Below, one piece after another: positions 6,999-31,243 of a stretch of DNA of 64,000 bases. The stretch lies in the IMG/VR virus record IMGVR_UViG_3300008448_000024, positions 1 through 64,000 of that record; one strand, 5' to 3'. The translations under genes and the position numbers were made by a program. The first letter of the stretch is position 1. Every line of letters begins with the position of its first letter. The DNA comes from a virus. The notes under the pieces are model-generated. The model had not been told where the DNA came from. It saw only the letters and a list, made by a program, of their open reading frames with translations, and made no database searches.

Positions 6999-7098
6999 GG
7001 TCGGGTGGCGGAATTGGTAGACGCACACAAGTGGGAGGTTCGATTCCTGTCTCTGGTGTCACTTGCGTACATTACAGGTTCGAATCCTGTCCTGACTA
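6999..7098 (+). ncRNA. tRNA-like element E3
   Basis: The acceptor GGTCGGG/CCTGACT pairs with two wobbles. A Leu-type D arm (GGCGGAATTGGTAGACGC) and a T arm (ACAGG, TTCGAAT, CCTGT) frame the element. The middle is closed by CAAGTG/CACTTG and contains a second T-arm-like segment (GGAGG, TTCGATT, CC), as if a fragment of another tRNA had been inserted. No normal anticodon arm is visible. Confidence 0.6.
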
Positions 7099-7657: not shown

Positions 7658-7755
7658 AGTCAGGTGGCGGAATGGTAAAGCCGTGGCTGGCGAAATACAG
7701 TAACCAGAGCGAAGAATAAAAAGAGTTCTTGCAGGTTCGAATCCTGTCCTGACTG
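7658..7755 (+). ncRNA. tRNA-like element E5
   Basis: AGTCAGG/CCTGACT acceptor, shortened D arm (GGCGGAATGGTAAAGCC) and a T arm GCAGG/CCTGT with one G-U pair. The centre forms CTGG/CCAG with a 13-nt loop and a variable-arm-like AAGAA/TTCTT stem. It begins 5 nt after the stop of the 7401 gene and ends 15 nt before the next start codon. Confidence 0.6.
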
Positions 7756-7995: not shown

Positions 7996-8118
7996 AGTCA
8001 GGTAGCTCAGTTGGTTAGAGCAACTCCCTAAGATAATGAAATATCGCACCAAGTCTGGTAGGGCGCGGATACCGAAAGGTCAGTAAGGGGTCAGTCTTAA
8101 GTCATAGGTTCGAATCCT
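7996..8118 (+). ncRNA. tRNA-like element E6 with insertion in the anticodon loop
   Basis: Unlike the other elements this one has a class I D arm (GCTC AGTTGGTTA GAGC). An anticodon stem ACTCC/GGGGT can be drawn, but its loop is about 59 nt and contains its own hairpin (ACCA/TGGT). Removing about 52 nt would leave a 7-nt loop. The T arm is ATAGG/CCTGT. The 3' end reads CCTGATC instead of CCTGACT. It could be a tRNA with a small intron-like insertion. Confidence 0.6.
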
Positions 8119-8152
8119 GTCCTGATCACAATTAATAAACAAAATCAAAATT

Positions 8153-11738: not shown

Positions 11739-11822
11739 AGTCAGGTGGCGCAATTGGTAGACGGTTGGTGCTGGGCAGTAGGCTCCTCCAAAGGTATATA
11801 GGTTCGAATCCTGTCCTGACTA
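11739..11822 (+). ncRNA. tRNA-like element E7
   Basis: AGTCAGG/CCTGACT acceptor, Leu-type D arm (GGCGCAATTGGTAGACG) and T arm ATAGG/CCTGT. At 84 nt it has class II tRNA length, but the middle only offers TTGG/CCAA with a 19-nt loop, so no standard anticodon arm. The 11838 gene starts 16 nt further on. Confidence 0.6.
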
Positions 11823-20308: not shown

Positions 20309-20803
20309 GGGCCTGTCCGGTATTGATTGCTATGATGAATGGTAGTACCACATGCAGACAGAAGTGCTAGATGTCTTTAAATCTGCGCAGAACAATAAAC
20401 GACGCAAATAAACAAGCTCGTATCGCTGAAGGTGAAGCTATCTTAGCTTCTATTTTCTCTAGTGTAGCAGTAGCTGCATAAGCGGTGGGGGAGTTATCCC
20501 TCGCAACAGAAAATAACAAACGAGTACTTGCATAAAGCATGATCTAAAAGGCTATGCATTTTAATGTAGAAACAACTCATGTAGAGGTCTACATATACTC
20601 AATGTTTTCCTGATAGTCGTAAAATCAGGTGGTGGAATCGTTACCCAATTGGGTAGCCCCTTTACGGTGCAGATAAAAGAACCAGTTATCTAAAGGTTAA
20701 TTCCTGAAGAGCTATACGTCACATTTATCAGTACTAAGCATGTGAGACGTTGGTATTATGATTCCATAGTAAGACGCGGGTTCGATTCCCGCCAGGTCCA
20801 CCA
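20309..20803 (+). ncRNA. ssrA: tmRNA
   Basis: The 5' end GGGCCTGTCCGGTATTGA pairs with the 3' end CAGGTCC (acceptor with one wobble). The T arm is GCGGG TTCGATT CCCGC and discriminator plus CCA are encoded. An internal reading frame from about GCA at 20404 to TAA at 20479 encodes ANKQARIAEGEAILASIFSS followed by VAVAA; the AVAA end is of the type recognised by ClpXP-like proteases. At 495 nt it is longer than typical one-piece tmRNAs; the extra sequence lies between the tag frame and the T arm and includes an E-like GGTGGAAT...TTGGGTAG segment. It rescues stalled ribosomes. Confidence 0.8.
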
Positions 20804-21274: not shown

Positions 21275-21299
21275 AGATTAACTATAAAAAAACTACAAA

Positions 21300-21328
21300 G
21301 GCCCCGATTAAAAAATCGGGGTTTTTTT
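21300..21328 (+). terminator. Rho-independent terminator
   Basis: CCCCGATT and AATCGGGG form a stem followed by a run of T. It separates the small genes from the tRNA array. Confidence 0.85.
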
Positions 21329-27549: not shown

Positions 27550-27987
27550 ATGAGAAAAGATTTAACAAAAGAAAGAGTTACAGAAGTTTGCAATAGTAGT
27601 GAGTCAATGACTATCGCTGCTATTAAATTAAAAGTTCATTTTAATACTCTAAAAAGAGTAGCAGAAAAGTTTGGATGTTATAAACCAAATAAAGGATTAA
27701 AAGGTGTTAAAAAACCTATTGATCCTAAAATACAACTAAAAGAGATTTTAGAAGGTAAGCATCCATCATTTCAGACGTATAAATTAAAAATACGATTACT
27801 AAAAGAGGGTATATTTAAAAATGAATGTAATATTTGCGGATTAGATTCTTGGTTAGGAAAACCATTAATGATCGAACTAGACCATATCGATGGTAATAGT
27901 CATAATCATAAAATTGATAACCTAAGAATGCTTTGTCCAAATTGTCATTCGCAAACACACACATTTCGTTCAAAGAAAAGAAATTGA
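27550..27987 (+). CDS. HNH homing endonuclease inside the group I intron, 145 aa
   Basis: The N-terminal 50 residues look like an HTH (SMTIAAIKLKVHFNTLKRVA). The HNH domain is at residues 93-140: CNICG, LDHIDGNSHNHKIDNLRMLC and CPNCHSQT, with zinc-binding Cys pairs. The enzyme would make the double-strand break that lets the intron spread to intron-less tRNA-Leu genes. Confidence 0.9.
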   Translation: MRKDLTKERVTEVCNSSESMTIAAIKLKVHFNTLKRVAEKFGCYKPNKGLKGVKKPIDPKIQLKEILEGKHPSFQTYKLKIRLLKEGIFKNECNICGLDSWLGKPLMIELDHIDGNSHNHKIDNLRMLCPNCHSQTHTFRSKKRN

Positions 27988-28231
27988 GTGCCTTTAGAGA
28001 AATCTAAAGAGTAGAATTCCGTAAATTCGGTGAAACCTTTAAAATGGTAATACCGAGCCAAGCCTGAAAGGGAAGGTGTAGAGACTAGACACGGAACACC
28101 TAAATTGAAAAATATGGTGAAGGTATAGTCCAGACTACAAACACGTTAATGTGGTAGTGAAAACTATAGTAGTAAGAAAATCTTGTGGACCGAAGGGTCC
28201 GTGTCGGTTCGACCCCGACCACGAGCACGAT

Positions 28232-28696: not shown

Positions 28697-29624
28697 CATT
28701 GTTAATTATATCAAATTAAGTTCTTTGAAAATATTGTTATCCATTCGAACATCTTCTTGATGGCTTCGGTTTAATTGAAGAAGTTCGATAAATAACATTC
28801 GGCGGCATATAGTCGTTAAATAAACCACGAAAGTGGTATAAAGTGAGACGCTTGACTGAAGCGTTTTGCGGCATCTGTAAAGATGCTCGAGTATGCAAGT
28901 AGGGTATTACGAATCCTTCAGTACTGAGGGTAACACTGTAGGGAAAGTGGATTTGTAATTGGGCGATGTGGGTCGTCCGATTGAGGAGGGAACTCCAATA
29001 AGAATAACCTATAGATTGTATGCAAAGGGCGTAGCTCATCCAGTTACGTGATTGCGTTAATCAATGTGAGAGGTATCTTAAAACCGAAAGGTATATGTTC
29101 GTACAGGTGGTGCTGTTGTTCATCTGCGATGTACTCTACCAAGAGTATGTTGCGTGAAGGAATCTTAAAACATGGAAATGGGGACATTTCAAAAGGTAGT
29201 TGAATATCTACTCTGCCAAAAGCGGAGCCGGTTCAGGGCAAGCCACTACCTTTACAATCCACAAGTCAAACTTTAATAATTTGCATTTGTAGCGAAATCT
29301 ATTAATCTAATAAATTAGAGCATAAGCGCTTGCCAGTCACGGACGAAAAATGCCTACATAGTATCTGGTCGTCAGATGCCATCTAAGGCCGCAAGCCGAA
29401 GGTGATTTTCTCGAAAAGGTCGTAATCTCGCAAGGATTAATCTGCTCGGCAGAGTAGAACGGACGGAGTAAGGAGAGAGTAGTCCAAACAAAGTGACTTA
29501 AGGGGTGATTAGTCTAACTAATCGGCATTGTCGGTATAATAGTCAAAAGCTATTGGACAAAAGAGGAAAATAATATAATCTCTTGAAAGTATCGACGTCA
29601 AGACTATAGTCTCAAGTCTTTTTT
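28697..29624 (+). ncRNA. Large structured non-coding RNA, about 900 nt
   Basis: No gene fits in this stretch. It starts after promoter-like P3 with a boxA-like GTTCTTTGAAAATATT (28720) and ends at a terminator-like AAGACT/AGTCTT hairpin with a T-run (29600-29624). Many short helices with GAAA and GCAA-type loops can be drawn. Size, position beside phage tRNAs and ornate folding recall the GOLLD and ROOL classes of phage RNAs. Its place between the cREC and Ro60 genes suggests a link to RNA metabolism. The class needs a covariance search. Confidence 0.6.
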
Positions 29625-29701: not shown

Positions 29702-31243
29702 ATGGCACGTTACAATGCAAAAGCAAAACCAAAAGTAACAGCAGTTACAAACCACCAAGGTGGTGTAGGGTACAAGTATGACCCTAAACATGAATTAGTA
29801 GCAATTCTAGCTACAGGATTAGACAACAAGTATTACGAAAAAGCAGGAGAGCGTGAACAACGTTTATCTAATGTAATCGCAGAGGTTGCAAAGAAAGATA
29901 AATTGTTCGCAGCAAAAGCTCTTATTTATGCTCGTACTGTGATGGGACAAAGAACAGTTACTCACTTCGGTGCAGTAGAGTTAGCAAAAGTTCTATCAGG
30001 CGACTCTTTAGGTGCTAAGTTCTTCTCTAAGAGAGCTCGTAAGGAAAACAAGGGCGGTATCATATTTCGTTTAGACGATATGCTTGAAATCGCATCTTGT
30101 TACATAGCACGTAATCCAGGAAAGCAACTTTCAAACGCTATCAAAAAGGGTTTCAAAGCAGCTTTAGAAAATGCTGATGAGTATGAATTAGCTAAGTACC
30201 AAGCGAAGAACCGTGATCTATCTTTAGTAGACATCGTTAACCTTGTGCACCCTAAGCCATCTGAAAAGATGAAGCCGGTGTTTGCAAAGTTAATGAAGGG
30301 CGAATTAAAGCAATTCAATACTGTTGAAGATAAGAACACTAAGGCTGGTCAAGAAGTTGCAGCTAAGGTTAAGTCAGGTACTATTACAGCTGAACAAGCA
30401 AAAGTTCAATTAGATCAAGCTAAGGAAGAAAACTATGCTGAATTAATTGCAACACGTAAGATTGGATATTTAGCGTTACTTCGTAACCTAAGAAACATCT
30501 TAAACACTGGAGCTAAGTCAGAAATTGTTAAAGGCGCTTGTGAACTCTTAACTGACAGCAAGCTAATTAAGCAATCGCTTGTGTTTCCGCACCAAATCGA
30601 TTTAGCATTAGAAATAATGTTAGATGAATTCGGAGCAAGTAAAGCAAGACCTTTCATGGAAGCTCTGAATAAGGCATACGAATTATCTATTCCAAACCTT
30701 ACAGAACTATTCACATCAGGTAAAACTGCAGTAGTATTTGATAGCTCAGGTTCAATGGACACTCCAATCAGACTTGTGAGCAATAAGAGAGGTTCAGAAA
30801 GAGCAATCGATAAGGCTGCTCTGATCGCAGCAACTCTCGCAAAAGGTATCAATGCAGATGTATACCACTTTGCTGACTCTTGCAGAATGATTAAGTTCAA
30901 TCCGCTTGATAGTGTTAACTCGCTTAAGCGTTTATTCACATCAGCTCAAGGTTCAGTAGGTTACGGCACAGCTTTCAACAGTATTATGCCAACTTTAGGA
31001 GGTAAGTATGATCGTGTATTCGTAATCAGTGATATGCAAGGACGTGATAGATTAGAACGTTCATCTTACAAAGATGCTCACGTATATTGTGTAGACATCA
31101 CTGGATACGGAACTACAATGTTCAAGCCAGGAGAAAAGATCTATCAAATCCATGGCTACTCAGCGGACATCTACGAACTGATCAAGAAGGTTGAAATTGA
31201 TCCAAAAGTGTTAATTAAGGCAATCGAGGCGATTGAAATCTAA
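29702..31243 (+). CDS. rsr: Ro60/TROVE-domain RNA-binding protein, 513 aa
   Basis: Residues 20-320 form the HEAT-like TROVE ring (NHQGGVGYKYDPKHELVAIL, YARTVMGQRTVTHFGAVEL). Residues 340-510 are a von Willebrand A domain with a MIDAS motif (VVFDSSGSMDTP) and a late FVISDMQGRD. Length and layout match bacterial Ro (Rsr). Ro proteins bind misfolded RNAs in the ring and Y RNAs on the outside; in bacteria they act with nucleases and often lie beside RNA-repair genes. Structured RNAs flank this gene on both sides. No obvious truncation. Confidence 0.9.
   Translation: MARYNAKAKPKVTAVTNHQGGVGYKYDPKHELVAILATGLDNKYYEKAGEREQRLSNVIAEVAKKDKLFAAKALIYARTVMGQRTVTHFGAVELAKVLSGDSLGAKFFSKRARKENKGGIIFRLDDMLEIASCYIARNPGKQLSNAIKKGFKAALENADEYELAKYQAKNRDLSLVDIVNLVHPKPSEKMKPVFAKLMKGELKQFNTVEDKNTKAGQEVAAKVKSGTITAEQAKVQLDQAKEENYAELIATRKIGYLALLRNLRNILNTGAKSEIVKGACELLTDSKLIKQSLVFPHQIDLALEIMLDEFGASKARPFMEALNKAYELSIPNLTELFTSGKTAVVFDSSGSMDTPIRLVSNKRGSERAIDKAALIAATLAKGINADVYHFADSCRMIKFNPLDSVNSLKRLFTSAQGSVGYGTAFNSIMPTLGGKYDRVFVISDMQGRDRLERSSYKDAHVYCVDITGYGTTMFKPGEKIYQIHGYSADIYELIKKVEIDPKVLIKAIEAIEI

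Follow-up and report, generated by a model that had tools for sequence, protein, structure and literature searches.

A phage-encoded tmRNA with a probable 26-residue tag and its place in a family of long-tag phage tmRNAs

The window analyzed here, a stretch of 64,000 nucleotides that is part of a large lake phage (it codes for a baseplate wedge/J protein, a DNA primase and SbcD-SbcC), carries its own ribosome-rescue RNA, and the tag of this RNA is one branch of a large and apparently undescribed family of phage tmRNAs. The gene, at 20309-20803 on the + strand, is a one-piece tmRNA of 495 nt that matches the model RF00023 end to end (positions 1-374, 68.5 bits, E 1.5e-24, cut-off 47 bits). A phage-encoded tmRNA had been claimed in an earlier note on this DNA, with an Infernal comparison to this model as the proposed check; the match above the cut-off bears the claim out, and the coordinates and length given were exact. 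A near-identical tmRNA is present in a second phage contig of 179.6 kb (G001), and the gene is therefore no assembly accident of one record; G001 and the window code for identical baseplate and SbcCD-like proteins. ARAGORN made no call at 20309-20803, so tmRNAs of this sort may have been overlooked. The features of the gene and its surroundings are as follows.

20309..20803, + strand: one-piece tmRNA gene (ssrA), 495 nt (RF00023 68.5 bits, full model)
20309..20315, + strand: 5' strand of the acceptor stem P1, GGGCCTG; G3 is 20311 and pairs with the U of CAGGTCC (sequence)
20356..20388, + strand: PK1, formed by AGACA 20356-20360 with TGTCT 20372-20376 and by GTGCTAGA 20364-20371 with TCTGCGC 20382-20388, one bulge (agrees with the Rfam alignment)
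20396..20400, + strand: UAAAC, equivalent of E. coli U85-C89, with A20397 as the equivalent of A86; sets the resume codon (the motif precedes the tag in relatives too)
20401..20478, + strand: tag frame of 26 codons, DANKQARIAEGEAILASIFSSVAVAA; resume codon GAC 20401-20403 (sequence)
20462..20479, + strand: P5-like hairpin across the end of the tag frame (predicted fold)
20479..20481, + strand: tag stop codon TAA (sequence)
20482..20720, + strand: pseudoknot region past the tag, longer than that of the relatives (alignment to relatives; stems)
20776..20792, + strand: T-arm GCGGG TTCGATT CCCGC (sequence; 5/5 pairs)
20793..20803, + strand: 3' strand of the acceptor stem, CAGGTCC, discriminator A and encoded CCA (sequence)
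21297..21326, + strand: intrinsic terminator, 13-bp stem and T tail, past the tmRNA and a small ORF and before a tRNA-Phe gene

The window sequence is complete in the tRNA-like domain, PK1, the UAAAC motif and an open tag frame with its stop. The P1 stem GGGCCTG/CAGGTCC contains the alanine identity pair G3-U70 required by AlaRS. PK1 was assigned by hand; the solution of the automatic finder for the window was spurious. GAC 20401 is the most likely resume codon; it lies directly after UAAAC, 12 nt past PK1, and has an A (A20397) at -4. In E. coli, 12 nt separate PK1 from the resume codon, which is immediately preceded by UAGUC; A86, at -4, is essential, the change A86C abolishing or shifting tagging (PMC2481249). 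The tags of the relatives begin directly after UAAAC or UAAAU with GCA or GAC as first codon, and the calls that ARAGORN itself made on them have the same placement, tags starting with D included. The earlier note had read about 25 residues from GCA 20404, a start that would place a C at -4; its frame stands, but the adjacency to UAAAC, the spacing from PK1, the A at -4 and the placement in the relatives argue for GAC 20401 and a tag of 26 aa. This frame is open up to the small hydrophobic end ...AVAA, as had been noted, and the TAA, and the alternative frames meet a stop after 14 and 2 codons. The tag is indeed more than twice the usual length: of the 87 tags that ARAGORN read in a baseline set, which was fetched by a generic 3'-end pattern and comes mostly from prophage edges with host-type tags, 67 were 10 aa long. 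It can be called unusual against such tags, but not within this phage group, where 23–31 aa is the norm.

A first set of relatives, 15 contigs with a related TROVE protein, was scanned for tmRNAs regardless of the tag. Nine had a tmRNA over the cut-off, and the tags in this set were ANVELSTWTIEDALAFVDGEFALAA, ANVELSTWTIEDALAFVDGEAMAIAA, ANVELSTWTFEDAMAFADGEFAMAA and DELSTMTFDDLMAFVGADYALAA; none was found in some close relatives, for example the 167-kb contig G003. A tag-alignment scan of 2.9 million viral contigs gave 101 loci, of which 80 were kept, and 19 of the 20 loci checked passed RF00023. More than 80 contigs of uncultivated phages have tmRNA tags of 23–26 aa with the common core ELST[MW]TFEDAMAFVGADYAVAA, and 34 distinct tags of this length contain it. 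The G3-U70 pair was present in all 65 unique RNAs, and the resume codon was GCA or GAC in 62 of them.

The tag of the window, DANKQARIAEGEAILASIFSSVAVAA, does not have the core ELST[MW]T[FI][ED]D..AF that lies near the middle of the family tags, but its length, D start and ...AVAA end are retained. Judged from its sequence, the window RNA is therefore a relative of the long-tag family, with a common backbone and phage lineage, and not a bearer of the core tag. Its 5' half and several 3' segments match a locus (L029) whose tag has the core, and the baseplate protein is 44–62% identical in 14 of the other phages searched. The N-terminal part of the window tag may have been replaced by recombination or have diverged rapidly in this lineage. 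This tag is carried by two near-identical contigs only, the search for relatives having returned just the twin contig, and PDB and PHROGs gave chance-level matches only. L028 has the same tmRNA as L029 with a 77-nt internal deletion, by which the tag end would become ...VGRLIK, either an allele or an assembly error. A full tmRNA of the 484-kb phage LR756508.1 carries a very long tag, 32–34 aa, that ends in ...KPAAV.

A sign that the tag matters as a peptide comes from the substitutions within the family. For 38 unique cores, picked by a peptide pattern, pN/pS was 0.31 in the tag frame, whereas the shifted frames gave 1.4 and 1.8. Since selection by peptide pattern favors conservation, a tag-blind sample was drawn by matching an 18-base pattern placed before the resume codon, in which the first base was the only part of the tag to be considered. 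Among the 54 contigs obtained, 39 had a core tag of 24–25 aa and six a different long tag of 29–31 aa, ANVYN[SA]ED[MI]MSIPTS[IL]TR... (L261, L272, L273, L303, L304 and L313; one runs off the contig end). A tag of 14 aa was found in four and the 9-aa tag GVNNYALAA, which resembles Bacteroidota tags, in one (L286), while the remaining four were not tmRNAs by eye. In this sample pN/pS was 0.22 (19 unique cores). Related sequences not being independent, these figures are summaries and not P-value tests, and they cover the family core and not the divergent tag of the window. Between RNAs, the tag peptide has a mean identity of 73%, compared with 58% (nucleotide) in the pseudoknot region behind it. 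These comparisons indicate that the family tag is kept as a peptide by purifying selection.

A core motif of the family tag gave 216 pattern matches in 84,980 prokaryotic (bacterial and archaeal) genomes, none of which was confirmed, and the scan yielded no host tag. A tblastn search of the tags against 50,697 cultured-phage records, for which a 24-aa query is weak, gave no match; a mycobacteriophage tag gave none either and was excluded from use. Phage SmpB was also used as a host probe, but the pattern search of the same 84,980 genomes found no host, and the SmpB of G005 had no close relative there. Shine-Dalgarno sequences precede none of the 52 window genes and their upstream regions are A-rich, a combination typical of Bacteroidota translation. 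Among cultured phages, the baseplate protein had its best matches in Flavobacterium phage immuto and Microcystis phage Mel-JY01 (45% each). The lack of Shine-Dalgarno sequences, the A-rich upstream regions and the cultured relative on Flavobacterium suggest that the host is probably a member of the Bacteroidota. Given the peptide-level conservation of the family tag and the failure to find it in bacterial genomes, it is plausible that proteins bearing it have a fate different from that given by the host tag. The earlier note had also suggested rescue after tRNA cleavage, to which the one pointer is the neighboring block of more than 20 tRNAs.

We consider it probable that the window codes for a functional phage tmRNA that works with host SmpB in ribosome rescue during infection and adds a phage-specific degradation tag with N-terminal docking. 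Host AlaRS would charge the RNA with alanine, and host SmpB and EF-Tu would carry it to stalled ribosomes. The ribosome would accept the alanine, restart at GAC and append DANKQARIAEGEAILASIFSSVAVAA, the ...AVAA end would mark the product for a host protease of the ClpXP type, and the freed ribosome would again be available for making phage proteins. In the family tags, the long N-terminal part may serve as a phage-specific dock for a protease or adaptor; docking is proposed because selection keeps this part as a peptide across the wider family, by analogy with the 27-aa tag of Mesoplasma, which is recognized by Lon (PMC9097571). A further step, which we put forward tentatively and hold to be rather doubtful, is a private channel of trans-translation, in which the long phage tag is read by a protease or adaptor blind to the short host tag. 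Unfinished infection proteins would then be handled apart from those of the host, and some of the phages do have SmpB or ClpP-like genes.

Simpler explanations have to be weighed against this proposal. The RNA could be an ordinary rescue tmRNA in which only the AVAA end is a degron and the tag length reflects drift or history. The window tag has only its length and end in common with the family, the template of the E. coli tag tolerates changes with hardly any loss of rescue (PMC2481249), and tags of 9 and 14 aa follow the same upstream sequence. However, the N-terminal core of the family is as conserved as the end (pN/pS 0.2–0.3, tag-blind sample included), and we regard this explanation as unlikely. 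A decoy that inhibits host trans-translation by titrating SmpB, with the tag incidental, is precedented in that phages can have RNAs with little beyond the tRNA-like domain and tmRNA is inhibited by molecules like them (PMC4131195), and a 112-nt tmRNA-like RNA is found in LR756508. Against this, the window RNA retains a complete open tag frame, PK1 and the frame-setting bases, and its relatives retain the tag as a peptide, which makes a decoy very improbable. Nothing was found in favor of a recent copy of a host tmRNA acquired with flanking DNA, and there is hardly any room for it, given that a core motif of the family tag was not found in the about 85,000 genomes scanned and that the tmRNA is common to many diverged phages. 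The 112-nt RNA (LR756508.1 414804-414915; L022 1501-1612; RF00023 58 bits) has G3-U70, a P2-like stem and no tag region, and resembles the TLD-only RNA of mycobacteriophage DS6A.

About 2% of phages have a tmRNA gene in their genome (PMC9004378, PMC7162821, PMC4131195), and phage tmRNAs and long tags being both already known, the tmRNA of the window is not new in kind. Like the tmRNAs of mycobacteriophages, Bacillus phage G, Pelagibacter/OM43 phages and huge phages, it is a gene of a lytic phage, often located beside tRNAs, but its tag is 26 aa long, compared with 13 aa in phage G and 12 aa in PegLeg. The tag of PegLeg, a cultured mycobacteriophage, is AAFVDADYAVAA, strikingly close to the C-terminal half of the family tag, with AMAFVGADYAVAA as its last residues, a likeness that could be due to either common descent or convergence. 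As for the Bacteroidota one-piece tmRNA, the upstream frame-setting sequence recurs in the phage RNA of L286, with its Bacteroidota-like tag GVNNYALAA, whereas the window tag is about three times longer and of another sequence. Mesoplasma and Mycoplasma tags of 27 aa are likewise long, with elements beyond the C-terminal degron and, there, dedicated recognition by Lon (PMC9097571); however, their sequence is unrelated and here the tag is phage-encoded. None of the tag strings tried was found in the open-access literature searched, where a large phage tmRNA group with long tags under peptide-level selection is unreported. Phage tmRNAs commonly appear among the accessory genes, with no tested role. 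A tag that distantly related phages conserve as a peptide, and that was not found in bacterial genomes, suggests that in infection the tag as such is of importance, and that phages may operate their own version of the bacterial clean-up system for ribosome rescue. With the family tag there is now a defined sequence for experiments, and a candidate new degron for uncultivated phages with probable Bacteroidota hosts.

A search of G000 and G001 detected no SmpB gene in this phage, but two tag-bearing relatives carry one, G005 (4e-50; L050 1471-1932) and G029 (2e-47; L315 1483-1923). Of 24 tmRNA-bearing phages, 8 have a ClpP-like protease, which may be a prohead protease instead of a true ClpP; in three of them (G018, G019 and G020; L318-L320) about 4 kb separate its gene from the long-tag tmRNA; the ClpP search of G001 was negative and no phage protease was found there. 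In the window, a cluster of more than 20 tRNAs begins about 0.5 kb past the tmRNA, and a GOLLD RNA and a TROVE (Ro) protein are located about 9 kb downstream, so that an RNA quality-control island made up of GOLLD, TROVE/Ro, tRNAs and tmRNA is possible. The GOLLD RNA (29192-29618, 238.9 bits) ends 83 bases before the TROVE/Ro gene (29702-31243), and in the relative L115 a GOLLD at 2130-2549 is 0.36 kb from the tmRNA (2907). A group I intron match (27955-28154, 60.7 bits) lies between an HNH endonuclease ORF and an ORF with a cREC_REC domain. Far from the tRNA cluster there are weak tRNA matches at 762-835, 6999-7098, 7658-7755, 7996-8128 and 11739-11822, some of up to 133 nt and two with odd or unassigned anticodons.
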